Shown one piece after another: positions 5,963 through 20,401 of a DNA stretch of 35,877 nt. Below the pieces are notes generated by a model. That model was not told the DNA's origin, did not search any database, and was given only the letters and a program-made list of their open reading frames with translations. This stretch comes from Microcoleus sp. FACHB-DQ6. Lineage in GTDB: Bacteria; Cyanobacteriota; Cyanobacteriia; Cyanobacteriales; Microcoleaceae. The translations under genes and the position numbers were made by a program. The first letter of the stretch is position 1. The number at the start of each line of letters is the position of its first letter. Location of the stretch: assembly GCA_014695175.1 (NCBI GenBank), contig JACJNV010000131.1, positions 1 through 35,877 of the forward strand, read 5' to 3'.

Positions 5963-6066
5963 ATGTCTGGGTTGAAAACAAGCCCTAGCCTCTATTAATG
6001 TATAAGTCATGTTATACTCAAGGCGATCGCACTTTCTCTCACTATTTATTAAGATAAAAAAAATTA

Positions 6067-9000
6067 ATGCACAAAATAGCAGCCACACCCGGAGGTTGGA
6101 ACCCTCAAGCAGAAGGAGTAATTTTTATTCAGCAAACCCCAGCACCAATAGTATTTATTAGTGCTGCTGACACCGACATTCAAACTCTCGCAGCCGCCGC
6201 ATCCAAAATGCCGGCCAAATTTCCCAAAGTGCGGGCAGTAAACCTGCTTCAGTTGCAGCAACAACTAACAATTGATACTTATGCCGAGGAAGTTTTAGAA
6301 CGCGCCGAGGTGATAATCTTAAGACTGTTAGGAGGGCGTTCTTATTGGTCTTACGGGTTAGAAATCCTGCGAGAAACTGTGCAGAAAACTAACGCATCAC
6401 TGATTGTAATGCCGGGAGAAGACAGTCCCGACCCCGATTTAATCAGCCATTCCAATGTATCGCTGTCAGCAGTCAATCAACTGTGGCGCTACTTCACAGA
6501 AGGCGGAGTCCACAACTTTGTTAACGCACTAAAATTTGCCGCCGATACTTGCCTAAAAACTGCTTATAATCCGCCCCTACCTCAAACAGTTTCCCGCGTC
6601 GGAATTTATGATTGGAAAAAGCAAATTGAATCGTCCCCAACTTGCGGACACGGGGATATTACTTCTAAATCTAAAGTCGGAATTTTATTTTATCGCGCTC
6701 ATTACTTATCAGGAAACTTAGCACCTGTTGATGCACTTTGTCAAGCTCTCGCAGAGCGAAACTTAGTACCGGTTCCCGTCTTTGTGTCTTCTCTTCGGGA
6801 ACCGGATTTGCAAATAGAATTGCTGGAATATTTCCAGCCAAAAGAATCAGAACCCATTCAATTATTGCTAAACACCACAAGTTTTGCAGTCTCGGGTTTC
6901 AGCAGTCAAGAACCGGCACAAAACAGCTTAAAATCCTTAGACGTTCCTGTATTGCAAGCAATCTTCAGCGGTGGGGGTTTGGAACAGTGGGAAACGGAAC
7001 TTCAGGGACTTTCGCCCCGCGATGTGGCGATGAATGTAGCATTGCCGGAAGTAGACGGAAAAATCATTACTAGGGCGGTTTCTTTTAAAGCGGTACAGAC
7101 TTGGAACAGCGAATTAGAAACAGATGTAGTAGGCTATGTAGCAGCGGGCGATCGCATTTCATTTGTAGCAGATTTAACCGCGAATTGGGTGAAAATGAAA
7201 CAAACCCCAGCCGCCAACAGACGCATCGCCATAATTTTAGCAAATTACCCTACCCGCAACGCCCGCTTAGCCAACGGTGTCGGCTTAGATACGCCCGCTA
7301 GCTGTGTCGAAATCCTCAAAGCTATGCAGGAAGCTGGGTATCAAATTGAAAACCTACCCGCTAGCGGCAATGAGTTAATTGAACTGTTAACTTCTGGGGT
7401 GACAAATGACCCGGAAGGACGCGAATTGCGGCCTGTTCATCAATCATTGGATTTGGCAGAATATGAAGAATATTTTGCTAATTTGCCGCAGGAAGTGCAA
7501 GATGGGATTTGTAAAAGATGGGGGCTTCCGGGAAGCTATGCACAAGATTTTATAAGTAACAATACGTCTTTTCCGATTCCGGGGATTCAGTTCGGTAATG
7601 TATTTGTAGGAATTCAACCATCGCGGGGATACGAACTTGACCCCGCATTAAATTATCACGCACCCGACTTAGAACCAACTCACAATTATCTAGCTTACTA
7701 TTATTGGCTGCGAGAAAAGTTGGGAATTGACGCTATAATTCATGCTGGAAAACACGGCAATTTAGAATGGCTTCCCGGTAAAAGTATAGCATTGTCTAAC
7801 AAATGTTATCCAGAAGTAGCATTAGGCGCAATGCCGAATTTTTATCCCTTCATTGTCAACGATCCGGGGGAAGGTTCCCAAGCAAAAAGACGATCGCAAG
7901 CTGTGATAATCGACCACCTGACACCGCCGATGACTCGCGCCGAACTCTACGGGCCTTTGCAGCAGTTGGAAACCTTAATCGACGAGTATTGCGAAGCCCA
8001 AAGTTTAGATCCGTCCAGATTGCCCATGATTCGCGATCGCATTCTCGCCCTCACCAACAAAGAAAACTTAGATAAAGACTTAGGAATACAACTAAATAAA
8101 TCGGAATTTACAGAATTTATTACCCGCACAGACGGCTATCTTTGCGAACTCAAAGAATCCCAAATCCGCGACGGATTGCACATTTTTGGGCAGTGTCCCG
8201 AAGGTAGACAGTTGAGAGATTTGATAATTGCGATCGCCCGCCATCCCACCAACGGGCGATCGGGCATAACCCGCGCCCTAGCAGAAGACTCAGGCTACGA
8301 TTTCGACCCTTTAACCTGCGATCCAACGTCGATAATTCAGCACCGCACAGCAGGCGATTTAACAGCAGAACTCGAAGAAAAAGCCGCTGAATTAGTAGAT
8401 AACTTAATCGAAAAAATCCGCGTTCATCCGCGTTCATCTGCGGTTAAAAATATCCAAATCGGAGAAGGAACCCAACAAGAACTAAACTGGATAAACAACT
8501 ATCTTTTACCTTCACTCCTCCAAACAAACCAAGAAATTACCAACCTTTTGCGCGGACTAGATGGGCGGCACATACCCAGCGGCGCATCCGGCGCACCCAC
8601 TCGCGGCAGACCAGATGTATTGCCCACCGGTCGCAATTTTTACTCAGTAGATATCCGCGCCATTCCCACAGAAACCGCCTGGAGAGTTGGCCGAGTTGCT
8701 GCTGAAACTTTAATCGAAAGATACACCCAAGAAAACGGCGAATATCCGAAAACTTTGGGTTTGTCAGTGTGGGGAACATCCACGATGCGGACGGGGGGAG
8801 ACGACATCGCCGAAGCCTTGGCGCTGATAGGAGTTCAACCAGTTTGGGATGGCCCTTCGCGCCGGGTTGTAGATTTTGAAATCTTGCCAGTTTCTGTTTT
8901 GGGGCGGCCGCGCGTTGATGTTACTTTGCGAATTTCTGGCTTTTTCCGCGATGCTTTTTTTAATTTAATTGATTTGTTTGACAGTGCGGTAAAAGCTGTG

Positions 9001-9948
9001 GCGGATTTAGACGAATCGGCAGAAAACAACCCTTTAGCCGCACAAGTTCAAGCAGAGATTCAGTATTGGGAATCTACAGGTTTGAGTCAGGAAGAGGCGC
9101 AAAGGCGATCGCAATTTCGAGTCTTTGGCTCAAAACCGGGTGCTTACGGCGCAGGGCTTCAAGGCATAATTGAAGCTCAAAACTGGACAAACGACAGCGA
9201 TTTAGCAAAAGCTTACATTAATTGGAGCAGTTACGCCTATACAAGTACCCCCCCAACCCCCCCTTATCAAGGGGGGGCTAAATCTAATTCCTCTCCTTTA
9301 CAAGGGGGGGCTAATTCCAACTCTTGTCCCCCCCCTTTACAAGGGGGGGTTAGGGGGGGTGAATGGGGATGTTCTGCACCCGAAGCATTTGAAAAACGCC
9401 TCGGCCAAATGCAAATAGTTCTGCAAAACCAAGACAACCGCGAACACGACATCCTCGACTCCGACGATTATTATCAATTCCAAGGGGGAATGACGGCCGC
9501 AATTCGCAATTTGCAAGGCAAAAATCCTGAAACCTATTTCGGAGACAACTCGATTCCCGAAAATCCGAAAGTCCGGCAACTGCGAGAAGAAATTGCGCGG
9601 GTTTATCGCAGCAGGGCTGTGAATCCCAAATGGATAGAAGGTGCAATGCGACACGGTTATAAAGGTGCTTTTGAAATTGCAGCAACTGTTGATTTTTTGT
9701 TTGCTTATGATGCTACGGCAAATTGTGTAGAGGATTTTATGTATGAAGGAATCGCAGAGGCTTACATTTTTGATGAGAAAGTGCAGGCATTTATTCAAGA
9801 AAACAATCCTTGGGCGCTGCGAGATATGGCGGAAAGATTGCTAGAAGCTCGTCAGCGAGGGTTATGGCAGAGTGCCAAGCAGGATACATTGGATAAATTG
9901 AGGTCGATCGCCCTGCAAGCCGAAGCAGTCATCGAATCCCATACATAA
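6067..9948 (+). CDS. cobN: Cobaltochelatase large subunit CobN
   Basis: CobN is the large cytoplasmic subunit of the ATP-dependent cobalt chelatase that inserts Co2+ into the corrin ring in aerobic-type cobalamin synthesis; it is a homologue of magnesium chelatase ChlH/BchH. The frame gives 1293 residues, close to the family size. Family blocks include VIILRLLGGRSYWSYGLEIL, GILFYRAHYLSGN, the DAIIHAGKHGNLEWLPGK block (around residue 555), VGRVAAETLIERY, and near the end MRHGYKGAFEIAATVDFLFA. Absence of ChlH-type features supports CobN. No small subunits are adjacent; in cyanobacteria ChlI/ChlD may serve (inference). Two stretches are foreign: about residues 784-794 (tandem repeat-derived IRVHPRSSAV) and 1061-1098, a 38-codon insert made of a G/C-run palindrome that keeps the frame. 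Confidence 0.95.
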   Translation: MHKIAATPGGWNPQAEGVIFIQQTPAPIVFISAADTDIQTLAAAASKMPAKFPKVRAVNLLQLQQQLTIDTYAEEVLERAEVIILRLLGGRSYWSYGLEILRETVQKTNASLIVMPGEDSPDPDLISHSNVSLSAVNQLWRYFTEGGVHNFVNALKFAADTCLKTAYNPPLPQTVSRVGIYDWKKQIESSPTCGHGDITSKSKVGILFYRAHYLSGNLAPVDALCQALAERNLVPVPVFVSSLREPDLQIELLEYFQPKESEPIQLLLNTTSFAVSGFSSQEPAQNSLKSLDVPVLQAIFSGGGLEQWETELQGLSPRDVAMNVALPEVDGKIITRAVSFKAVQTWNSELETDVVGYVAAGDRISFVADLTANWVKMKQTPAANRRIAIILANYPTRNARLANGVGLDTPASCVEILKAMQEAGYQIENLPASGNELIELLTSGVTNDPEGRELRPVHQSLDLAEYEEYFANLPQEVQDGICKRWGLPGSYAQDFISNNTSFPIPGIQFGNVFVGIQPSRGYELDPALNYHAPDLEPTHNYLAYYYWLREKLGIDAIIHAGKHGNLEWLPGKSIALSNKCYPEVALGAMPNFYPFIVNDPGEGSQAKRRSQAVIIDHLTPPMTRAELYGPLQQLETLIDEYCEAQSLDPSRLPMIRDRILALTNKENLDKDLGIQLNKSEFTEFITRTDGYLCELKESQIRDGLHIFGQCPEGRQLRDLIIAIARHPTNGRSGITRALAEDSGYDFDPLTCDPTSIIQHRTAGDLTAELEEKAAELVDNLIEKIRVHPRSSAVKNIQIGEGTQQELNWINNYLLPSLLQTNQEITNLLRGLDGRHIPSGASGAPTRGRPDVLPTGRNFYSVDIRAIPTETAWRVGRVAAETLIERYTQENGEYPKTLGLSVWGTSTMRTGGDDIAEALALIGVQPVWDGPSRRVVDFEILPVSVLGRPRVDVTLRISGFFRDAFFNLIDLFDSAVKAVADLDESAENNPLAAQVQAEIQYWESTGLSQEEAQRRSQFRVFGSKPGAYGAGLQGIIEAQNWTNDSDLAKAYINWSSYAYTSTPPTPPYQGGAKSNSSPLQGGANSNSCPPPLQGGVRGGEWGCSAPEAFEKRLGQMQIVLQNQDNREHDILDSDDYYQFQGGMTAAIRNLQGKNPETYFGDNSIPENPKVRQLREEIARVYRSRAVNPKWIEGAMRHGYKGAFEIAATVDFLFAYDATANCVEDFMYEGIAEAYIFDEKVQAFIQENNPWALRDMAERLLEARQRGLWQSAKQDTLDKLRSIALQAEAVIESHT
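8417..8446 (+). repeat. 10-bp tandem repeat inside cobN
   Basis: TCCGCGTTCA occurs twice in tandem and a third variant, TCTGCGGTTA, follows. The motif family 'atccgcgttcatctgcggtt' is normally intergenic in cyanobacteria as far as I recall. Here it is translated as IRVHPRSSAV within CobN, between two ordinary family blocks. Confidence 0.5.
9247..9360. repeat. In-frame 114-bp palindromic G/C-run element inside cobN
   Basis: The arms are ACCCCCCCAACCCCCCCTT at the left and its near-perfect inverse, AAGGGGGGGTTAGGGGGGGT, at the right, with two further copies of the TACAAGGGGGG motif between. The length of 114 bp is exactly 38 codons. It is translated as Pro/Gly/Ser-rich peptide (PPTPPYQGG, SPLQGG, PPPLQGGVRGG) between WSSYAYTS and APEAFEKRLGQM, which would otherwise be near-adjacent. 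Confidence 0.75.
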
Positions 9949-10035: not shown

Positions 10036-11685
10036 ATGATTCGCCGCTACATTGCTAGCATCAGCACCAGCATCCTCAAACGTACCTGCGCCGCAGCCGC
10101 TGTATTAGCCGTAACTTTGGGATGTTCGTCAACGAAGCCGCCCAACACCGCAGCGCCATCGGGTTCGATCGAATCCGCAGTCCTAGCGCAGTCCCCAACG
10201 TCTCTGTTAGCCCGAAACCCCAACAAATCCAAAAAATCCGTCAGCGTTTCTTCATGCCCTCAAAACGATGGCTTCACCGAGGCAGTTAACTTTGCCACCC
10301 AAGCTTCTAATTTGGCTCAATCAGCCAATTCAAAACAAGAGTGGGACAAAGTAGCCGCCCTGTGGGTACAGGCCGTCGCCTGGATGCAAGCGGTTCCCGC
10401 CGGTAGTCCCAGACGGGCGTTTGCTGAGAAAAAAGTAATCGAGTACATGAGAAACCTGGTTTATTCCCAGCAGCAAGCGACCGCAACCCGATCGCAAGCC
10501 AGTACAGTCAGCTTCAGCAGCGATTTGCTAAACGAACAACTAGAACTTTACCTATCCTACGTTGCTGCGGTCGGCCCGCCAGATGTTTTGATTGTCGGCA
10601 GTTCCCGGGCATTGCAGGGCGTCGATCCCAAACAGCTAAAACAATCTTTGGCCCAAAGGGGCCGTCCGGGCTTAAAAGTATTTAACTTTTCAGTCAACGG
10701 CGCAACTGCACAAGTAGTTGACTTTCAACTGCGGCGGCTTTTGAAGCCAGGTCATTTGCCTCAAATGATTGTCTGGGCGGATGGTGTGCGGGGATTTAAC
10801 AGCGGCCGGGACGATCGCACTTTTAATTCGATCGTCGATTCTGAAGGCAGCCAACTTTTAGCAGCAGGCATTCGCCCCGAACTGCCGTCGGATGAACCCA
10901 ACGAGATTCCGCTGTGTTACAGATTCCCGCAGCCCTGCGCTAACAACACTTTCCGCAAAGCATTGGCATCTGTCGATCGACCTTTCAGGGGCGGACAAGA
11001 TGCCCACCCCACACTCAAATTCCTGTCCAGTGGAACGGGCATCTTGCCCGTTGCTGACACCCACCCCCCAATCAAATTCCTGTCTAGTGGAACGGGCATC
11101 TTGCCCGTTGCTGAGAATGCTGCAAGATATGAGTTAAAACCGATCGCAGCGAATGCAGCAACCCAAAAAGCACAATTGATTCCAGTCTCGCGACGCACAA
11201 CAGTAGCCATGAGACAACTCAACCAATTGGCAGATTCGATCGACTCTAACGGATTCATGGCTATATCGGGCACTTACAACCCCAACACTTATTATCGGGA
11301 ACGCGCTTACGTTTCAGGCCAGTACGATCGCGACTACGAAAACTTCAACCTCGGAGGCAAACAAGCAACAGCCTTTAATTCAGTTGTAGCATTTACCAAA
11401 GCTCGCAAAATTCCCCTAATTTTCGTTAATTTGCCCCTCACCAACGACTACTTAGACGGAACTCGCCTGTGGGCAGAACAGCAGTTCCGGCAGCGAATGC
11501 AGCAACTCTCGCGGCAAAAAGGCTTCGCTTTCCGCGACTTGTCGCAGCGCTGGCCGGGCCGTAACGACTATTTTTTTGACCCCAGCCACCTCAACCGCTT
11601 TGGGGCGATCGCAGTTTCTCGCCTACTCGCGGCCGATTCCAGCATTATCTGGCCGCGGCCCAAATCCAGCCGCAGCGACGGGTGA
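10036..11685 (+). CDS. DUF1574/SGNH-like lipoprotein
   Basis: A 549-residue protein starting MIRRYIASISTSILKRTCAA, with a lipobox ending in Cys30 (AVTLGC), so it is probably a lipid-anchored envelope protein. The SGNH-like core is seen as VLIVGSSRALQGVDP (about residues 183-197, nucleophile Ser in GSS), FNFSVNGATAQVVDFQLRRL, MIVWADGVRGFN and FFDPSHLNRFGA (about 512-523, the Asp-x-x-His block). This resembles DUF1574 and AlgJ/AlgX-type acyltransferase/esterase folds, suggesting acyl transfer to or from a surface glycan; the substrate is unknown. A foreign insert at about residues 317-360 holds two copies of KFLSSGTGILPVA. The 3' end runs into a GAAGGAA repeat starting at the stop codon. Confidence 0.75.
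   Translation: MIRRYIASISTSILKRTCAAAAVLAVTLGCSSTKPPNTAAPSGSIESAVLAQSPTSLLARNPNKSKKSVSVSSCPQNDGFTEAVNFATQASNLAQSANSKQEWDKVAALWVQAVAWMQAVPAGSPRRAFAEKKVIEYMRNLVYSQQQATATRSQASTVSFSSDLLNEQLELYLSYVAAVGPPDVLIVGSSRALQGVDPKQLKQSLAQRGRPGLKVFNFSVNGATAQVVDFQLRRLLKPGHLPQMIVWADGVRGFNSGRDDRTFNSIVDSEGSQLLAAGIRPELPSDEPNEIPLCYRFPQPCANNTFRKALASVDRPFRGGQDAHPTLKFLSSGTGILPVADTHPPIKFLSSGTGILPVAENAARYELKPIAANAATQKAQLIPVSRRTTVAMRQLNQLADSIDSNGFMAISGTYNPNTYYRERAYVSGQYDRDYENFNLGGKQATAFNSVVAFTKARKIPLIFVNLPLTNDYLDGTRLWAEQQFRQRMQQLSRQKGFAFRDLSQRWPGRNDYFFDPSHLNRFGAIAVSRLLAADSSIIWPRPKSSRSDG
10988..11109. repeat. In-frame intergenic-type repeat pair inside the DUF1574 gene
   Basis: Two 57-bp units (19 codons) each carry GGAACGGGCATCTTGCCCGT; the GGGCATCTTG blocks are at 11037-11046 and 11094-11103. 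An inverse copy, CAAGATGCCC, sits at 10996-11005, so the segment is palindromic. It is translated without a break as TLKFLSSGTGILPVA and IKFLSSGTGILPVA. Confidence 0.75.
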
Positions 11686-13719: not shown

Positions 13720-13774
13720 CGATAGCTATTCTAAATAGTCAGATACAAACGCATTGCGATTTGTGAGGAGACGA

Positions 13775-15751
13775 ATGAACATACTTGGAATCTCGGCGTA
13801 CTATCACGACAGCGCCGCAGCCTTAATTCGCGATGGAGAAATTATAGCCGCAGCGCAGGAAGAAAGATTTTCCCGCAAAAAGCACGACGCCAGATTTCCC
13901 AAGAATGCGATCGCTTATTGCTTGAAAGAAGCGAAAATAGATTTGCGGGAACTCGATCATATAGTCTTTTACGACAAACCTTTAGTCAAATTCGAGCGCC
14001 TTCTCGAAACCTATTTAGCCTACGCACCCCAAGGTTTTCGCTCTTTCCTAACAGCCATGCCGATATGGCTCAAAGAAAAGCTTTACCTCAAAACCATGCT
14101 CAAAAGAGATCTGGCAGCAATAGCAAACTGCAAAACGAATAAACTGCCATCTCTGCTATTTACCGAACACCACCAATCGCACGCAGCATCGGCATTTTTT
14201 CCCAGCCCCTTTGAAAAAGCAGCCGTTTTGTGCCTAGACGGCGTGGGCGAGTGGGCGACAACCTCAGTTTGGTTGGGAGACGGGAACGAACTTACACCTC
14301 AGTGGGAAATCGATTTTCCCCACTCCTTGGGTTTGCTTTATTCAGCTTTCACCTATTACACCGGCTTCAAAGTCAACTCTGGCGAATACAAACTCATGGG
14401 TTTAGCTCCTTACGGCGAACCCAAGTATGTAGACAAAATTCTCAACTATTTAATAGACCTCAAAGATGACGGAACTTTCCGTTTGAACATGGATTATTTC
14501 AACTATACAGTTGGCTTAACCATGACAAACAAGAAGTTTGACGAACTGTTTGAAGGACCGCCGCGTCAAGCTGAAGGAAAATTGACTCAGCGAGAAATGG
14601 ACATTGCAGCTTCCATTCAAGTTGTTACCGAAGAAGTTGTTTTGCGGCTTTGCAGAACAGTTAAAAAAGAATTGGATGTAGATTATCTTTGTCTTGCCGG
14701 CGGCGTTGCTCTCAACTGCGTTGCTAACGGTAGACTCTTGCGGGAAGGTATTTTCAAAGATATTTGGATTCAGCCGGCGGCGGGAGATGCTGGCGGTGCT
14801 TTGGGCGCGGCTTTGGCGATTTGGTACCAGTATTGCGAACAAACTCGCACTGTGAGCGCCAACTCGACAGCAAATAGTATAGAATCCCTCAAAACTGAAC
14901 TTGTCACTACAAACGCAGCGGTTGAGGAGAGGACTTCCGTTGTCACTACAAATCAAGCGGTGGCAACTGTGGCGAAATCAGTTGCTCATTTAACTTGTCA
15001 CGATCAAATGCGGGGCTCTTATTTGGGGCCGAGGTTTACTGACGCAGAAATTCTCGAATATTTGGATGCTGTCAAAGCCAGCTACCACCGATTGGACGAT
15101 GCCGAATTAATGCCGCAGTTGGCTGAGATTTTGGAACAGGGAAATGTGGTGGGATGGTTCCAAGGGCGGATGGAATTTGGGCCGCGGGCTCTGGGCGGTC
15201 GATCGATCGTGGGCGATCCCCGCAGTGCTAAAATGCAGTCCGTGATGAACCTGAAAATTAAATATCGGGAATCATTTCGACCTTTTGCTCCGTCAATCTT
15301 AGCCGAGCGAGTTGCGGATTATTTCGAGATTGACCATTCTAGCCCTTATATGCTATTAGTAGCACCTGTCAAAGCCAGTCTCCGCATTCCGATGACTCCC
15401 GAACAAGAGCAGTTGTTTGGCATTGAAAAGCTCAACATTCCGCGTTCCGAGATTCCCGCTGTCACCCACGTCGATTACTCGGCTCGCATTCAAACTGTTC
15501 ACAAAGAAACCAATCCTCGCTACTATGACTTAATCAGCCATTTTGAAAAGCGATCGGGCTGTTCTATTGTGGTAAATACTTCTTTCAACGTCCGAGGTGA
15601 ACCCATTGTTTGCACTCCCGAGGATGCTTACCGCTGTTTCATGCGAACAGAAATGGACTATCTGGTTTTGGAAAATTACTTGCTTCCCAAGTCCGAACAA
15701 ATTCCTTGGAAACAAGATGATGCTTGGAAAAATGAATTTGAACTAGATTAG
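13775..15751 (+). CDS. NodU/CmcH (SxtI-type) O-carbamoyltransferase
   Basis: Members of this family move the carbamoyl group of carbamoyl phosphate, through carbamoyl-AMP, to a hydroxyl of a sugar or metabolite. ATG 13775 follows a strong ribosome site (GAGGAG, 13764-13769), giving 658 residues. The N-terminal Kae1-like domain shows MNILGISAYYHDSAAALI, QEERFSRKKHDARFPKNAI, metal-site EHHQSHAASAFFPSPF and CLDGVGEWATTSVWLG, GEYKLMGLAPYGEP and LCLAGGVALNCVANG. The C-terminal domain shows VGWFQGRMEFGPRALGGRSI, KYRESFRPFAPSIL and VNTSFNVRGEPIVCTPEDA. All key blocks are intact. A linker of about 55 residues (about 355-410) is Ser/Thr/Val-rich and holds a 13-residue tandem duplication. It heads a cluster ordered like sxtI-J-K-L. 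The substrate is unknown. Confidence 0.9.
   Translation: MNILGISAYYHDSAAALIRDGEIIAAAQEERFSRKKHDARFPKNAIAYCLKEAKIDLRELDHIVFYDKPLVKFERLLETYLAYAPQGFRSFLTAMPIWLKEKLYLKTMLKRDLAAIANCKTNKLPSLLFTEHHQSHAASAFFPSPFEKAAVLCLDGVGEWATTSVWLGDGNELTPQWEIDFPHSLGLLYSAFTYYTGFKVNSGEYKLMGLAPYGEPKYVDKILNYLIDLKDDGTFRLNMDYFNYTVGLTMTNKKFDELFEGPPRQAEGKLTQREMDIAASIQVVTEEVVLRLCRTVKKELDVDYLCLAGGVALNCVANGRLLREGIFKDIWIQPAAGDAGGALGAALAIWYQYCEQTRTVSANSTANSIESLKTELVTTNAAVEERTSVVTTNQAVATVAKSVAHLTCHDQMRGSYLGPRFTDAEILEYLDAVKASYHRLDDAELMPQLAEILEQGNVVGWFQGRMEFGPRALGGRSIVGDPRSAKMQSVMNLKIKYRESFRPFAPSILAERVADYFEIDHSSPYMLLVAPVKASLRIPMTPEQEQLFGIEKLNIPRSEIPAVTHVDYSARIQTVHKETNPRYYDLISHFEKRSGCSIVVNTSFNVRGEPIVCTPEDAYRCFMRTEMDYLVLENYLLPKSEQIPWKQDDAWKNEFELD
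14901..14952 (+). repeat. 39-bp direct repeat in the carbamoyltransferase linker
   Basis: TTGTCACTACAAA occurs at 14901-14913 and 14940-14952, 39 bp (13 codons) apart, and is followed in each case by an AGCGG block. It is translated as LVTTNAAVEERTS and VVTTNQAVATVAK. A similar CTCACTACAAACT is in the intergenic DNA near 35637, so this may also be repeat DNA captured in a reading frame. Confidence 0.5.
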
Positions 15752-15757
15752 CAAGAA

Positions 15758-15810
15758 GGGCGGGTTTTTGAGTTTTTTCATAAGATAAAATATTTCCCTA
15801 AAACCCGCCC
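15758..15810. terminator. 11-bp stem palindrome after the carbamoyltransferase gene
   Basis: GGGCGGGTTTT (15758-15768) and AAAACCCGCCC (15800-15810) are perfect inverse copies around a 31-base AT-rich loop, 6 bp after the stop. The long loop and lack of a T-run make it more like a dispersed repeat or an attenuator than a full terminator, so the cluster may still be co-transcribed. Confidence 0.4.
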
Positions 15811-15850
15811 CTACAAGCCACTTTCTTTCTTCATTCTTTCCTCGACATTC

Positions 15851-15877
15851 ATCCGTTACATCCGTTACATCCGTTAC
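15851..15877 (+). repeat. 9-bp tandem repeat (ATCCGTTAC)3
   Basis: Three exact copies of ATCCGTTAC lie in the gap before the SxtJ-like gene. They are followed by two inverse copies of the GAAGGAA repeat unit next to its start codon. Confidence 0.8.
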
Positions 15878-15911
15878 ACAATCTGTTGCCGAACTTCCTT
15901 CTTCCTTCACA

Positions 15912-16319
15912 ATGAGCGACGAAATTAAAAAACTCGATAAAAAAGGCTTGCGCGATTTCGGGCTGCTAATTGGCGGCTTGATTGCAGTGCTGTTCGGTTT
16001 AGCAGTACCTTTACTGCGGCGGCATTCTCTACCTTGGTGGCCTTGGGCAGTAGGCGGAGTGCTAGTGCTGCTAGCATTGGTTGCGCCCAAATCGCTGAAT
16101 CCCGTTTATCACGCATGGATGCGCTTTGGACTTATTCTTAACAAAATCGAAACGCCGATCGTCCTAGGGATAGTTTTTTACCTGATAGTTTGGCCGATGG
16201 GAGTTATTAAACGCCTATTGGGCGAAGATGCAATGCGCCGAAAACTCAATCCGAAAATGGATACTTACCGCGTCCCAAGTAAAGCAAGAACCAAAGTTAG
16301 TATGGAGCGTCCTTTCTAA
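15912..16319 (+). CDS. SxtJ-family membrane protein
   Basis: A 135-residue protein from ATG 15912 (MSDEIKKLDKKGLRDFGLLI). There are three hydrophobic helices: LIGGLIAVLFGLAVPLL, WAVGGVLVLLALVAP and PIVLGIVFYLIVWPMGVIKR. Conserved SxtJ-type features are the N-terminal 'LRxFGLxxG' block, PKSLNPVYHAWMRFGLILN and the tail GEDAMRRKLNP. SxtJ is a membrane protein of unknown function named from the saxitoxin cluster, where it follows carbamoyltransferase sxtI, as here. It is 160 bp after the carbamoyltransferase stop and abuts the SxtK-like gene with no gap. I infer a membrane scaffold or transport partner of the carbamoyltransferase; the sequence gives no catalytic motif. Confidence 0.85.
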   Translation: MSDEIKKLDKKGLRDFGLLIGGLIAVLFGLAVPLLRRHSLPWWPWAVGGVLVLLALVAPKSLNPVYHAWMRFGLILNKIETPIVLGIVFYLIVWPMGVIKRLLGEDAMRRKLNPKMDTYRVPSKARTKVSMERPF

Positions 16320-16484
16320 GTGTTTGAATCTACATTAGACTTTCTCAAAGATTTGTGGGCGTTTATGAAAGAACGCCAAAAGTATTGGCTGTTGCCGTTA
16401 ATTGTGACTTTAGTCTTTTTGGGCGCTTTGATTGTATTGAGTCAGGGTTCTGTGATTGCTCCATTTATTTACACCCTGTTTTGA
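16320..16484 (+). CDS. SxtK-like small membrane protein (DUF5989)
   Basis: A 54-residue gene starting with GTG directly after the TAA of the SxtJ-like gene (zero spacing). It begins with FESTLDFLKDLWAFMKERQK, then WLLPLIVTLVFLGALIVLSQ, and ends with GSVIAPFIYTLF. An amphipathic N-terminal helix precedes one transmembrane helix of about 20 residues. This pattern, 'LxFLxDLWxFMKERKKYWLLPI', is the DUF5989/SxtK signature. The position after SxtJ and before a GDSL-type gene (whose ATG is 4 bases after this stop) matches sxtJ-K-L. Function is unknown; the tight packing suggests translational coupling and a complex with the SxtJ-like protein. Confidence 0.85.
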   Translation: MFESTLDFLKDLWAFMKERQKYWLLPLIVTLVFLGALIVLSQGSVIAPFIYTLF

Positions 16485-16488
16485 AAGA

Positions 16489-17721
16489 ATGAGCAAGTTG
16501 AAAGATTTGGGTGTCAATTTAGCTTTGACACTCGGCGGTTTATTGATGGGGGTGGTAATTGGTGAAGTTGGGTTGCGAGTTGCTAGAGTTGAGGGCTATC
16601 CAAAAATAGGAGATTTCGTAGACTCGGCGCCAACTCGTTTCCACACTTCCGATCCAAATTTGGGCTGGAAGCTGAAACCGGGTGCCTCGGGGGAGTGGAA
16701 TGGGGAAGGTGCGAGTCTTGTGCAGGTGAATAGCGAGGGTTTGCGCGATCGCGAACACACAAAAGCCAAACCTCCAAATACTTTGCGCGTGGCAGTTTTG
16801 GGCGATTCTTTCACCGAAGCAATTCAGGTACCTGTCGAACAAACTTTCTGGTCGAAATTGGAACGAAAGTTAGGCAACTGCGAAGCTGTTAAGGGACGCA
16901 AAAATGTTGAGGTCATGAATTTCGGGGTGCAGGGCTACGGTACTGCTCAACAATTGATAATGCTGCGAAAAAAAGTGTGGGATTACAATCCTGATATTGT
17001 AATTCTTGCCTTTTTTATTGGCAATGATATAATTAACAATTCGCCGCAATTGGAATACGATCGCTACCGACCATTTTTTGCTTATGATGCTAGCGGCAAG
17101 TTAGTACCGGATATGTCTTTTCGCAATCTGGCGCCGATCGACCGCAACGAAAGAGCAGTTTCTTTCGTTGACCGGATGCCCAGTTTGCTCGTCAACAATT
17201 CGCGCATTTTGCAGGTCATTAAAAAAGTAGACTTAGAGCGGAAAAAGCGGGAGTTATCGGCACACTTTACCACTTTAAGTACCCAAAACCTCAAGGAACC
17301 TCAGGATGCAGCTTGGCAAGAGGCTTGGAGGGTGACAGAGGGTTTGATTGTGACGATGCGGAATGAAGTCGTGCAGAAAAATGCTGATTTCTTGGTTGTG
17401 ACGATCGGCGATCCGATGCAAGTTAGGCCGGAGGCCGAGAGGCGAAAAAATTTTATGAGAAAGAACAACATTCAGGATTTGTTTTATCCCGATAGGCGGC
17501 TGGCAAAATTGGGCGCGCGCGAGGGTTTTCGGGTACTGAATTTATCCGAACAGATCCAAGGTTACACTGAAAAATATCAAGTCTGCGCCCACGGTTTTGA
17601 GAATTCTGTACCTTGTGGGGGTCACTGGAATGAACTAGGGCATCGGCTGGCTAGTATCTTGATTAACAGAAATTTGTGCGAAAATTTGAAGCAGTCTCAA
17701 GTCCCCAAAAAACAACCGTAA
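16489..17721 (+). CDS. SGNH/GDSL-family hydrolase, membrane anchored (SxtL position)
   Basis: A 410-residue protein from ATG 16489 (MSKLKDLGVNLALTLGGLLM). One N-terminal transmembrane helix (LALTLGGLLMGVVIGEVGL) anchors an extracytoplasmic SGNH domain. Blocks: LRVAVLGDSFTEAIQV (block I, nucleophile Ser), MNFGVQGYGTAQQLIML (block II Gly), ILAFFIGNDIINNS (block III GxND) and CGGHWNELGHRLASILI (block V His). The complete set implies an active esterase, deacylase or acyltransferase acting on an envelope or secreted substrate. It begins 4 bases after the SxtK-like stop and is in the place of sxtL (GDSL lipase) of the saxitoxin cluster. The substrate is unknown. Confidence 0.88.
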   Translation: MSKLKDLGVNLALTLGGLLMGVVIGEVGLRVARVEGYPKIGDFVDSAPTRFHTSDPNLGWKLKPGASGEWNGEGASLVQVNSEGLRDREHTKAKPPNTLRVAVLGDSFTEAIQVPVEQTFWSKLERKLGNCEAVKGRKNVEVMNFGVQGYGTAQQLIMLRKKVWDYNPDIVILAFFIGNDIINNSPQLEYDRYRPFFAYDASGKLVPDMSFRNLAPIDRNERAVSFVDRMPSLLVNNSRILQVIKKVDLERKKRELSAHFTTLSTQNLKEPQDAAWQEAWRVTEGLIVTMRNEVVQKNADFLVVTIGDPMQVRPEAERRKNFMRKNNIQDLFYPDRRLAKLGAREGFRVLNLSEQIQGYTEKYQVCAHGFENSVPCGGHWNELGHRLASILINRNLCENLKQSQVPKKQP

Positions 17722-17734
17722 GCCGTCAAATTTC

Positions 17735-19060
17735 ATGAAAGATTCAACGGTACTCGAAAAAAGCAAAAATATATTAATTATAATAGCGGTTAATTTGGCG
17801 ATCGCCTTTATTTGTCTGGAAGCTTTGTCGCTAGCTTTTTATTTTATCAACCAAAAGCAGTTTTTTTATACCAGAACTAAAGCCAAAGAACAAGTAGTAG
17901 AAGATATTGAACGGCTCGGAATTAGAGTAGATGAATCTATCGTAGAAAGACTGCACCCGTTTTTTGGCTACGTGCTCAAACAAGGTGCTTTTCCCAATGA
18001 AAAGTTAAAGTTAAAAGTCAACAAACACGGCTTTTTTTCCCTCTACGAATATCCGTTTATTAAAACCAATAACAAACAATTTATTATCGGAGTTTTTGGC
18101 GGTTCAGTTGCCAACAACTTTGCATTAGATGAATATATAAATAAAATATTGTCTAAAAAATTGCAGAGTTATCCAGAATTTGCCGATCGCGAAATTGTGG
18201 TTTTAAATTTTGGCAACGGCGGCTACAAACAGCCCCAACAATTACTAATTTTAAATTACTTTCTGGCTTTGGGCCAAGAGTTAGATTTAGTCATCAATAT
18301 TGACGGTTTTAACGAAGTAGCACTGTCAAATTTAAATAACAAAGCCCGAGTAGAAATAGGAATGCCCAGCGTTCAGCACATACAGCCGTTAACAGGTTTA
18401 GCGAGCAATAACGTGTCACCGGAAGTGATGAGTTCGATAGTACAAATTAACGAAAACAAAAAACAGTTGAAAGCAGGTATTGACAAGTTGCAAACTTGTC
18501 AGGTTGCTTTGTGTCACGCTGTTACCTCGCTACAGGTGAAACAATTAATCAACCATTATCAGCAAGCCGTGGTCAAGTACGATACGCAAGTCAAACAATC
18601 CAACTCAGACACGGCAAATAGCAGTATAGTGTACATTCCCAAAGCTGACTCTGTTTTCGAGGATGCCGCTGCTTTTGACAAAATGGCATCGATGTGGTAC
18701 GAATCGTCGATCGGGATGAATCAAATTTTATCAAGTAGAAAGATTAAGTATTTTCACTTTATCCAGCCCAACCAGTATTATCCTACTAAGCGAGCGTTTA
18801 CCGCCAAGGAAAACGAAATCGCGATTAACAAAGAGAGTCCTTACATTGAAGGGGTGAAAAAAGGTTATCCGGTGCTGTTGTCCAAAGTGGATGATTTGCA
18901 AAAAGCTGGGGTTAATATTTTTAGCGCAGTGAATATTTTAGACAATACAAAAGAGACGGTTTACAAAGATGCCTGCTGCCACTATAATTCAGTGGGAGAA
19001 GAAGTATTGGCAAATTATGTTTCCAGTTCTATTATTAAAGTAGTCAGGAAGTCGAAATAG
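17735..19060 (+). CDS. SGNH-like membrane protein, tandem paralogue 1
   Basis: A 441-residue protein from ATG 17735 with one N-terminal transmembrane helix (ILIIIAVNLAIAFICLEALS) followed by an extracytoplasmic domain. SGNH-like blocks are FIIGVFGGSVANNFAL (block I as GGS rather than GDS), VVLNFGNGGYKQPQQLLIL (block II), VINIDGFNEVALSNLNNK (block III, Asn present) and DACCHYNSVGEEVLANYV (block V, a His in CCHYN). The mid-region has a Cys pair (LQTCQVALCHA). It is 13 bp from the preceding SGNH gene and closely resembles the next gene, so it is a tandem duplication. Base composition is AT-richer than the rest of the window. Role: inferred esterase or acyltransferase partner of the cluster. Confidence 0.8.
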   Translation: MKDSTVLEKSKNILIIIAVNLAIAFICLEALSLAFYFINQKQFFYTRTKAKEQVVEDIERLGIRVDESIVERLHPFFGYVLKQGAFPNEKLKLKVNKHGFFSLYEYPFIKTNNKQFIIGVFGGSVANNFALDEYINKILSKKLQSYPEFADREIVVLNFGNGGYKQPQQLLILNYFLALGQELDLVINIDGFNEVALSNLNNKARVEIGMPSVQHIQPLTGLASNNVSPEVMSSIVQINENKKQLKAGIDKLQTCQVALCHAVTSLQVKQLINHYQQAVVKYDTQVKQSNSDTANSSIVYIPKADSVFEDAAAFDKMASMWYESSIGMNQILSSRKIKYFHFIQPNQYYPTKRAFTAKENEIAINKESPYIEGVKKGYPVLLSKVDDLQKAGVNIFSAVNILDNTKETVYKDACCHYNSVGEEVLANYVSSSIIKVVRKSK

Positions 19061-19066
19061 AGGTTT

Positions 19067-20401
19067 ATGAAAGATTTAAAAGTCCTCACAAAAGGACAAG
19101 AATTTCTAAAAATTGCTTTGATTAACTTAGCGTTTTTACTGGTTTTCCTGGAACTGGGTTCCTTGGGATGGTATTTTGTCAAGCACAAGCAATTTTTCTA
19201 TACTAGAGAAAAGACGCAAGATAAGTCGGCTTTAGGAATTAATTTAGAAGGAGTGCGGCTGAATCAGTCTATTGTCGAAAGGTTTCATCCTTTTTTTGGG
19301 TTTATTCAAAAACCCAGCGCTGATTTTCGGCCTGGTTTTAAAGTCAATAATTATGGGTTTATTTCTCCTTACGATTACCCTCTAAAAAAAACTAAAAATA
19401 ATCAGTTTTTTATCGGAGTTTTTGGCGGTTCTGTGGCTTCCGATTATGCAATCTTTCAAGTTCAGAATAAAATTTTACCTAAATACCTCAAACAGTTGCC
19501 AGGTTTAAAAGATAAAGAATTTGTAATTTTGTCTTTTGCGACGGGAGGCTACAAACAGCCGCAGCAATTATTAATTTTAAACTACTTTTTGGCTTTAGGT
19601 CAAGAACTAGATATGGTCGTCAATATAGATGGTTTTAATGAAGTAGCACTTTCTAATTTAAACAATAAAAATAAATTCGATTTGGCGATGCCAAGCATTC
19701 AGCATATTTCGCCGCTGGCTAACTTTGCAAATAATAGCCTTTCTACTAAGGCTATGGAAGCAACTCTCAGAATTCAAGAAAATAAAACTAGGATTAATCA
19801 GGCTTTGTCAAGTTTGCACAACTGCTCTTTAGCTGCGTGCAATGCTTTGACTTCTGTTTACGTTCAACATCTAGTAAATAACTATAAAACTGATGTTCTT
19901 AAGTTTGAAGAAGAACGGACTAAAAAACAAAAAGATGACAGTGGCAGCGTTATTTATATCAATACTAATAAGTCGGTTTTACAGGATTCAGTAGCTTTTG
20001 AAGAAATGGCAGGGAATTGGGCAAAAAGTTCAATTTTTATGCACAAAGTCCTGTCTGCTAGTAATGTACCTTATTTTCATGTTCTTCAGCCTAATCAATA
20101 TTATCAGACGAAAAGGGTGTTTGGTGAAGCAGAAAAGCAGATTGCTTTTAACAAGGAGACTCCTTATGCTAAATCTGTACAAATTGGATATCCGGCTCTT
20201 TTCAAAAAGTTTCCGAATTTGGAAAAAAATAATATTAATATATTGAATGCTGTCAATGTTTTTGACAAGAATAAAGAGGCTGTTTATGTAGATAGCTGCT
20301 GCCACTACAATAAAGCTGGAGAGGTGATTTTCAGCAATTATGTAGGTCGTTCTATTCTGGAATCTTTGCGGAAAGATGAGGCTAGAAGCAAAAAGAAGTA
20401 G
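19067..20401 (+). CDS. SGNH-like membrane protein, tandem paralogue 2
   Basis: A 444-residue paralogue of the previous gene, 6 bp downstream, with ribosome site AGAGG before ATG 19067. Shared blocks are FYTREK (FYTRTK in copy 1), SIVERFHPFFGF, FFIGVFGGSVASDYA, GYKQPQQLLILNYFLALG, NIDGFNEVALSNLNNK, LQPNQYYQTKRVFG and DSCCHYNKAGEVIFSNYVG. One N-terminal transmembrane helix (ALINLAFLLVFLELGSLGWY) is present. The Cys pair (CSLAACNA) is also kept. All SGNH-like positions match copy 1, so both copies are probably functional and possibly act as a heteromer. It is AT-rich relative to flanking housekeeping genes. It is the last gene of the cluster; a hairpin follows at 20441-20457. Confidence 0.8.
   Translation: MKDLKVLTKGQEFLKIALINLAFLLVFLELGSLGWYFVKHKQFFYTREKTQDKSALGINLEGVRLNQSIVERFHPFFGFIQKPSADFRPGFKVNNYGFISPYDYPLKKTKNNQFFIGVFGGSVASDYAIFQVQNKILPKYLKQLPGLKDKEFVILSFATGGYKQPQQLLILNYFLALGQELDMVVNIDGFNEVALSNLNNKNKFDLAMPSIQHISPLANFANNSLSTKAMEATLRIQENKTRINQALSSLHNCSLAACNALTSVYVQHLVNNYKTDVLKFEEERTKKQKDDSGSVIYINTNKSVLQDSVAFEEMAGNWAKSSIFMHKVLSASNVPYFHVLQPNQYYQTKRVFGEAEKQIAFNKETPYAKSVQIGYPALFKKFPNLEKNNINILNAVNVFDKNKEAVYVDSCCHYNKAGEVIFSNYVGRSILESLRKDEARSKKK

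Follow-up and report, generated by a model that had tools for sequence, protein, structure and literature searches.

A putative O-carbamoylation relay of sxtI-J-K-L-type genes with an acyl-shuttle-like tail on the DUF5989/SxtK microprotein

In the biosynthesis of saxitoxin, the proteins SxtI, SxtJ and SxtK have been proposed to act together and SxtL has been proposed to be a decarbamoylase (PMC2679770, PMC12300590). SxtJ and SxtK were called uncharacterised in 2010 (PMC2885083), and a later statement only repeats that they act with SxtI (PMC12300590). The sxtI, J, K and L genes have been grouped with genes of other Oscillatoriales (Moustafa 2009, PMC2684587), and sxtJ/K/L-like genes occur in the suomilide cluster and, by citation there, in a similar cluster (PMC10157211), so that finding them outside a saxitoxin cluster is not in itself new. 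Here we analyse a stretch of 35,877 nucleotides from Microcoleus sp. FACHB-DQ6 (hereafter, the window), which spans the whole of contig C37 in a cyanobacterial genome of 6.7 Mb and 98.26% completeness. On its + strand, at positions 13775-20401, six genes follow each other with gaps of 160, 0, 4, 13 and 6 nt. They encode an SxtI-like carbamoyltransferase (CT), SxtJ, the SxtK-family protein DUF5989, a GDSL/SGNH protein in the position of SxtL and two further SGNH-like proteins, the twins.

The second kind of system to which this module can be compared is the acyl shuttle, a principle described for MBOAT and AT3 systems (PMC12148441). There, an FXYXXF tail is carried by the microprotein DltX, which binds both an MBOAT and an SGNH protein. 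The C-terminus of Neisseria gonorrhoeae PatA is FIYANF, the Tyr of PatA is acetylated, and an acetylated peptide of this tail is a donor for the SGNH protein PatB (PMC12148441). We found that DUF5989 ends with an invariant FxYxx[F/I] tail, which is new here; our search of open-licence PMC papers found no text tying SxtK or DUF5989 to the shuttle motif. We propose that the module is probably a membrane-crossing O-carbamoylation relay that dispenses with an MBOAT and operates along the lines of Dlt and PatAB.

The C-terminal tail of DUF5989/SxtK

The DUF5989 protein of the window (16320-16484, + strand) is a microprotein with a single hydrophobic helix, predicted to lie in the membrane, and matched PF19451 with 90.3 bits (cut-off 27). 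As the initial annotation had claimed, it has 54 residues and a GTG start, and it begins directly after the SxtJ stop. Its last six codons (16464-16481), followed by the stop, spell FIYTLF and thus the FxYxxF hexapeptide of the acyl shuttles, with the Tyr codon at 16470-16472. We compared 140 DUF5989 proteins, a count which leaves out an interrupted DUF5989 (G225), a partial one (G221) and further relatives recorded as search matches only. All of them have F at position -6 and Y at position -4, 139 have P at -7 and 132 end with F, which gives the C-terminal consensus F-x-Y-x-x-[F/I], with PFIYTLF as its commonest form. The hexapeptides were FIYTLF in 87 proteins, FIYTIF in 34, FIYTII in eight and FIYSIF in seven, the rarer forms being FIYALF (two), FIYSLF (one) and FVYPFF (one). 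Since 80 of these proteins were fetched by the pattern APFIYT[LI]F, the 60 others (57 distinct), recovered by profile or tblastn, provide the count that was not chosen by tail: F and Y were present in 60/60 and the strict F.Y..F ending in 52/60. In a diverse alignment of 10 sequences the invariant positions were P24, S42, P46, F47, I48 and Y49, and the last residues, above all the Tyr, were the most conserved part of the protein. Lysine and arginine averaged 4.86 ahead of the helix and 0.03 over the final 14 residues, with the same direction in 140/140 proteins; this charge bias predicts an N-terminus inside and a tail outside the cytoplasm.

Such endings were rare among other genes. The window together with 55 cyanobacterial loci gave 1134 gene calls, of which 33 had an F.Y..F ending, 32 of them DUF5989 and one an MBOAT, and in 80 loci from GTDB representatives only 1 of 1154 other genes ended with [FY].Y..[FY]. 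By contrast, 29 of the 31 readable proteins in a sample of cyanobacterial MBOATs (33 loci, three from the host genome and 30 of 77 places) had this ending, the two without it being proteins of ~395 aa. The three MBOATs of the host genome all have shuttle-like endings (FIYFNF, YIYFDF and FIYFQF). In genome G251 (L094, 6169-7668) an MBOAT gene whose product ends with FVYFQF shares an overlap with the 5' end of the CT gene; both kinds of shuttle may be present there in one operon.

Association of DUF5989 with SxtJ and a long-type carbamoyltransferase

The CT of the window (open reading frame (ORF) 13754-15751, ATG at 13775, + strand) is a NodU/TobZ-type O-carbamoyltransferase of the long type distinguished below, with both domains of this family, Carbam_trans_N (PF02543, 424.7 bits) and Carbam_trans_C (PF16861, 255.3 bits). 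It matched solved carbamoyltransferase enzymes with a best E value of 2.1e-87, aligning with the novobiocin carbamoyltransferase and 7xb6, and matching TobZ and GdmN as well. TobZ and GdmN, members of this family, activate carbamoyl phosphate using ATP. Although the window CT shares the two-domain family with these enzymes and with NodU, it differs in its association with SxtJ and DUF5989 and in its C-terminal domain, which is ~20 residues longer; the stretch around PMTPEQEQLFGIEKLNIPRSEI was mostly gapped in the two alignments shown. We regard this extension as a candidate docking site for SxtJ.

SxtJ (15912-16319, + strand) is a small membrane protein that matched PF19588 with 54.4 bits (cut-off 24.4), so that neither the SxtJ nor the DUF5989 call of the initial annotation failed in profile searches. 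It has approximately three hydrophobic segments, as judged by eye, and 128 aligned homologues show conservation of F16, G17, W69, P95, D106 and Y119 as well as of an aromatic residue at the C-terminus. The last residue is F or Y in all 116 sequences that occupy that column, W ending a few others, and this aromatic C-terminus is perhaps a docking tail. Natural fusions join the three families: CT-SxtJ (747 aa) in genome G022 and SxtJ-DUF5989 (206 aa) in genome G338, where the SxtJ half scored 35 bits with a profile that excluded that very protein. With the GDSL/SGNH protein, these families form an sxtI-J-K-L-type set, each passing a Pfam cut-off and all on one strand, in the I-J-K-L order given in a table of PMC2679770. 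The six parts annotated initially were all recovered in their places, with Pfam cut-offs passed by all except the twins.

In 386 cyanobacterial genomes, DUF5989 exceeded the cut-off in 54, SxtJ (Pfam model) in 43 and the CT domain in 76, and all 43 SxtJ genomes also had DUF5989. Among the CT genomes we distinguished long and short types by the aligned length over 170 model positions (558-576 versus 492-519 nt, a split set by hand; 75 of the 76 genomes, G225 being dropped for internal stops in its CT). DUF5989 was found in 51 of the 52 genomes with a long CT and in none of the 23 with a short one only. Accordingly, 51/54 DUF5989 genomes have an intact long-type CT, the other three having a CT fragment (G223), the CT with stops (G225) or just a partial DUF5989 match (G221). 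A wider SxtJ profile, built without members from family f31 and G338, recovered SxtJ in 10 of the 11 remaining DUF5989 genomes (nine f31 genomes at 44-68 bits, plus the G338 fusion at 33 bits), which raises SxtJ to 53/54 with G221 as the exception; the Pfam model thus undercounts SxtJ. The families are retained even where they are not adjacent: the CT lies away from SxtJ and DUF5989 in G076, G080, G093, G106 and G320, and all three lie apart in G014. The host genome has a single match to each of them, seven genomes of the host genus (host included) have all three, and no genome of this genus was among the unmatched genomes listed, which are ordered by kinship. The module is also carried by small genomes (1.6-2.7 Mb) of the cyanobacterial family f25, which we infer to be picocyanobacteria.

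A second class, that of G389 (L134, a Nitrospinaceae record), comprises 77 genomes, with DUF5989 in 43, SxtJ in 43, the CT in 50 and all three in 38; the CT was present in 43/43 SxtJ genomes. SxtJ and DUF5989 shared a contig in 12 of these 38 and were on different contigs in 26, although in draft assemblies different contigs are no proof of distance. Fisher tests, which ignore kinship, gave 7.6e-59 for DUF5989 with the long CT (386 genomes) and 4.2e-11 for DUF5989 with SxtJ (77 genomes).

In GTDB representatives we confirmed at least 563 related stretches and kept 80 for analysis, of which 26 are from Pelagibacteraceae, a lineage of small genomes (in the range L154-L202). The CT, SxtJ and DUF5989 occur together in 68 of the 80, most often in the orders J-K-CT (30) and CT-J-K (17). 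Records with the module include Omnitrophota, KSB1, Planctomycetales, Bacteroidales, Acidobacteria, Pelagibacteraceae, Magnetospirillum, Gemmatimonadetes, Nitrospina and others; on pSymB of Sinorhizobium meliloti 1021, in a stretch without annotation, the sequence itself shows SxtJ-DUF5989-CT with an SGNH-like gene alongside. The idea that this neighbourhood is unique to the host genome was rejected, as the same set is present in other cyanobacterial and GTDB genomes. The initial annotation, which would have been undermined by such uniqueness, is supported in its claim of a stand-alone, membrane-associated CT system outside saxitoxin clusters. The system is widespread, and this breadth makes the module a plausible source of the sxt genes. 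We also dropped the idea of a lone DUF5989 working without CT and SxtJ, since a genome-wide search for 11 unlinked loci yielded SxtJ in 9/11 and the CT in 8/11 (a twelfth, L187 at a contig edge, was left out).

Some arrangements depart from the usual ones. A Planktothrix plasmid (L119, 7600-10433) has the series sterol desaturase-SxtJ-DUF5989-SGNH, and neither its annotation nor a profile search revealed a CT in 18 kb. In Methylosinus an SGNH-SxtJ-DUF5989-CT series comes after genes for an AMP-binding enzyme and a protein of 79 aa (L117, 4941-6700). A scan of viral sequences gave two contigs. The one analysed further (L222) has DUF5989 at 5998-6150, and 12 kb of it yielded no match for the CT, SxtJ or SGNH.

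SGNH proteins and the proposed relay

The SGNH gene of the window (ORF 16456-17721, + strand) has its first ATG at 16489, 4 nt past the DUF5989 stop. Its product matched PF00657 with 26.2 bits (cut-off 23.6) and PF13472 with 24.5 bits, below the cut-off of 32.9. It has a hydrophobic N-terminal segment that is likely a membrane anchor, and the residues of the Ser, Gly, Asn and His blocks are invariant or almost so in the family alignment. The twins follow on the same strand: twin 1 (17735-19060), also with a hydrophobic N-terminal segment, and twin 2 (19067-20401), ~50% identical to it. They had no match to any Pfam or NCBIfam model at E 0.001 and none to an SGNH model at E 10, and the twin-family profile alone matched no solved SGNH structure in the PDB at E 10. 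However, a profile-profile comparison (hhalign) tied them to the SGNH family with 97.8% probability and E 1.3e-12 over 321 columns and brought blocks I, II, III and V, those of Ser, Gly, Asn and His, into register, so we dropped the idea that they lie outside the SGNH superfamily. Invariant residues in 11 twin sequences include GGS124, GGY164, GFN193 and DxCCH416. The SGNH-like nature initially assigned to the twins is therefore right, by profile evidence only, and the module has three proteins in which the catalytic Ser and His are conserved. Nor are the twins a local oddity, since a twin homologue (188 bits) lies directly 3' of CT-SxtJ-DUF5989 in a Bacteroidales contig (L137).

SGNH genes, whose products take up the cargo of such a tail on a serine in the known shuttle systems, are enriched around the module. 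In the 68 GTDB loci where it is contiguous, the density of SGNH-model hits was 0.063 per kb within 3 kb and 0.0034 per kb beyond, a difference of ~18x (23 versus 2 hits). An SGNH gene lay within 3 kb in 23 of these 68 loci and, among the 46 cyanobacterial loci where the module is contiguous (including the window), in 27; because the SGNH model was built from module SGNHs, the cyanobacterial count is not independent, whereas the GTDB count is. The other profile models used to scan these loci came from cyanobacterial, f31 and alphaproteobacterial members. The SGNH gene lies between SxtJ and DUF5989 in L072, L079, L099 and L193 and between DUF5989 and the CT in L166. The 128 immediate neighbours in the 68 GTDB loci were scanned in two batches, 87 picked by hand in a way that favoured SGNH (16 SGNH-model hits) and 41 others (0 hits); Lipase_GDSL_2 was found in 10 (8/87 and 2/41), which means that most loci have no SGNH gene as a direct neighbour. 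We dropped a link of the module to one glycan pathway, as these neighbours share no common pathway except for a thiamine pyrophosphate (TPP) enzyme in Pelagibacteraceae. Another SGNH-like protein, the fourth of the window, is encoded at 10036-11685, ~2 kb upstream of the module, with 42.8 bits for DUF1574 and a weak match to DltD; its gene contains a direct repeat of 55 nt in two copies that are 95% identical, at 11003-11057 and at 11060-11114, with a spacing of 57 nt.

From these observations we propose the following relay. The cytosolic CT would activate carbamoyl phosphate with ATP and may dock at the membrane through SxtJ, two proteins that are naturally fused in one genome. SxtJ and SxtK, also found as a fusion, would then pass the carbamoyl group to the predicted extracytoplasmic tail of SxtK, where the putative intermediate is an O-carbamoyl-tyrosine on the invariant Tyr of the hexapeptide. 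Aryl carbamates carbamoylate serine hydrolases, which makes O-carbamoyl-tyrosine a chemically suitable donor. Finally, an SGNH protein with its conserved Ser and His would take the carbamoyl group and hand it to an acceptor, presumably a surface glycan or an exported metabolite; the three SGNH genes of the window may serve different acceptors. The initial annotation had imagined carbamoylation followed by (de)acylation, but the evidence favours a single relay, in which the tail of SxtK hands the group to the SGNH proteins and these transfer it in the manner of Dlt and PatAB, over a second and opposite reaction. More tentatively, SxtJ and SxtK could be a minimal, MBOAT-independent carbamoyl translocase and the SGNH proteins, SxtL included, terminal carbamoyltransferases instead of decarbamoylases. 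If so, an activated group would cross a bacterial membrane by a route not recognised before, and the reaction of SxtI would end outside the cytoplasm.

The comparison with described systems shows where the analogy holds. Both the module and DltABCDX, the system for D-alanylation of teichoic acids, have a cytosolic activating enzyme, the CT taking the place of DltA, which works via an adenylate. Dlt also has an MBOAT and a carrier protein; it lacks an equivalent of SxtJ, and sequence comparison did not match DUF5989 with DltX. The likeness to Dlt lies in an SGNH protein, a transferase in Dlt, and in a small membrane microprotein with a C-terminal FxYxxF, which in Dlt is extracellular and bears the group on its Tyr and in the module is predicted to do so, and that to PatA/PatB in the style of the tail (FIYANF against FIYTLF) and the SGNH partner (PMC12148441). 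In PatA/PatB and the MBOAT-SGNH O-acyltransferases, however, the tail is on the MBOAT, while in the module it is on a microprotein or, in one genome, on an SxtJ fusion. Compared with the saxitoxin and suomilide clusters, the families are the same (and, for sxtI-J-K-L, also the order), but the window shows no toxin or non-ribosomal peptide synthetase genes beside the module and has two extra SGNH paralogues.

Several observations weigh against the relay. No MBOAT loader was found among the scanned ORFs of the window or with a one-sequence MBOAT model, for which reason we describe the module as working like Dlt and PatAB and not as a member of them. SxtJ is small and matched none of the MBOAT models at E 10; the membrane crossing is the weakest step, the putative role of SxtJ as a stand-in for the MBOAT being suggested by association. 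DUF5989 matched no DltX model at E 10, their likeness consisting of tail, size and charge bias, and the last residue was I in 8 of the 60 DUF5989 proteins not chosen by tail. In the window SGNH (CGGH) the Asp normally found three residues ahead of the catalytic His is missing, and in the twins its position has shifted (DxCCH). There was no SGNH match within 3 kb in 45/68 GTDB and 19/46 cyanobacterial loci, and the TPP enzyme of Pelagibacteraceae is a commoner immediate neighbour than Lipase_GDSL_2 (at least 15/128, namely 14 of the second batch of 41 plus L156). In the draft genomes of the second class, five have SxtJ without DUF5989 and five DUF5989 without SxtJ. In G398, G399 and G465 of this class, DUF5989 lies beside a short-type CT (a fragment in G465) and the genome has no SxtJ over the cut-off; a short-type CT also adjoins DUF5989 in L176. 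These cases suggest a possible two-part variant, in which a CT-SxtK pair may sometimes dispense with SxtJ, unless SxtJ is lacking from the draft assemblies or escapes the Pfam model.

These difficulties leave room for other explanations. Carbamoylation might take place entirely in the cytosol, with SxtJ and SxtK holding the CT at the membrane near a lipid-linked or membrane-near acceptor, the tail acting as a packing element and the SGNH protein trimming or removing groups later. TobZ and GdmN are soluble enzymes not known to have such partners. A scaffold of this kind would fit the joint action proposed for SxtI, SxtJ and SxtK and the suggestion of SxtL as a decarbamoylase (PMC2679770, PMC12300590). 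We nevertheless consider it rather unlikely, since it explains neither the conservation of the tail Tyr, in a tail otherwise typical of acyl-shuttle MBOATs, nor the SGNH enrichment. It is more improbable still that the shuttle carries another acyl group, such as acetyl, loaded by an MBOAT encoded elsewhere, while the CT acts at some other point of the pathway. The overlap of MBOAT and CT genes in G251 and the three MBOATs of the host genome would agree with this, but 29/31 MBOATs bear a tail of their own and the one-sequence model gave 0 hits in 87 loci (L116-L202) and only one (in L094) in the window and 55 cyanobacterial loci. Moreover, five DUF5989 genomes (G014, G076, G080, G093 and G107) had no MBOAT at E 0.001 in a check that covered the listed unmatched genomes, 44 further unmatched genomes being outside it.

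The nature of the acceptor is a separate question. Instead of an envelope glycan it might be a small exported metabolite, as in natural-product clusters with sxtJ, K and L; such an acceptor can be accommodated by the relay. The suomilide cluster with its sxtJ, K, L-like genes (PMC10157211) and the sterol desaturase-SxtJ-DUF5989-SGNH series of the Planktothrix plasmid point in this direction. Yet no biosynthetic cluster was recognised among the Pfam-scanned ORFs of the window. Lineages as different as Pelagibacteraceae, Nitrospina and Omnitrophota have the module, and the 128 neighbours scanned share no pathway apart from the TPP enzyme of Pelagibacteraceae. We regard a metabolite in place of an envelope glycan as unlikely.

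The relay, as we read it, would give SxtJ and SxtK concrete and testable roles, and would carry the idea of the acyl shuttle over to a carbamoyl donor whose putative loader is much smaller. Genes known chiefly for their place in the saxitoxin cluster seem to encode a machine, widespread in bacteria, for passing carbamoyl groups through the membrane. Given how common the module is, notably in Pelagibacteraceae, the ocean may hold a widely distributed, unrecognised carbamate that is exported or on the cell surface.

Other features of the window

No sxtA/B/D/G/H gene was found among 20 Pfam-scanned ORFs of the window; genome-wide, only PF02274 was searched (0 matches, SxtG possibly being outside its reach), with no sxtA probe. 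Upstream of the module, an ORF for a CobN/magnesium chelatase (6067-9948) contains three copies of a short C/G-rich repeat at 9247-9352, 33 and 39 nt apart. For repeats of this type (CCCCCTT..AAGGGGGG) the window has nine overlapping matches, where 0.14 would be expected, and the element seems to have been inserted in frame within this core enzyme gene.

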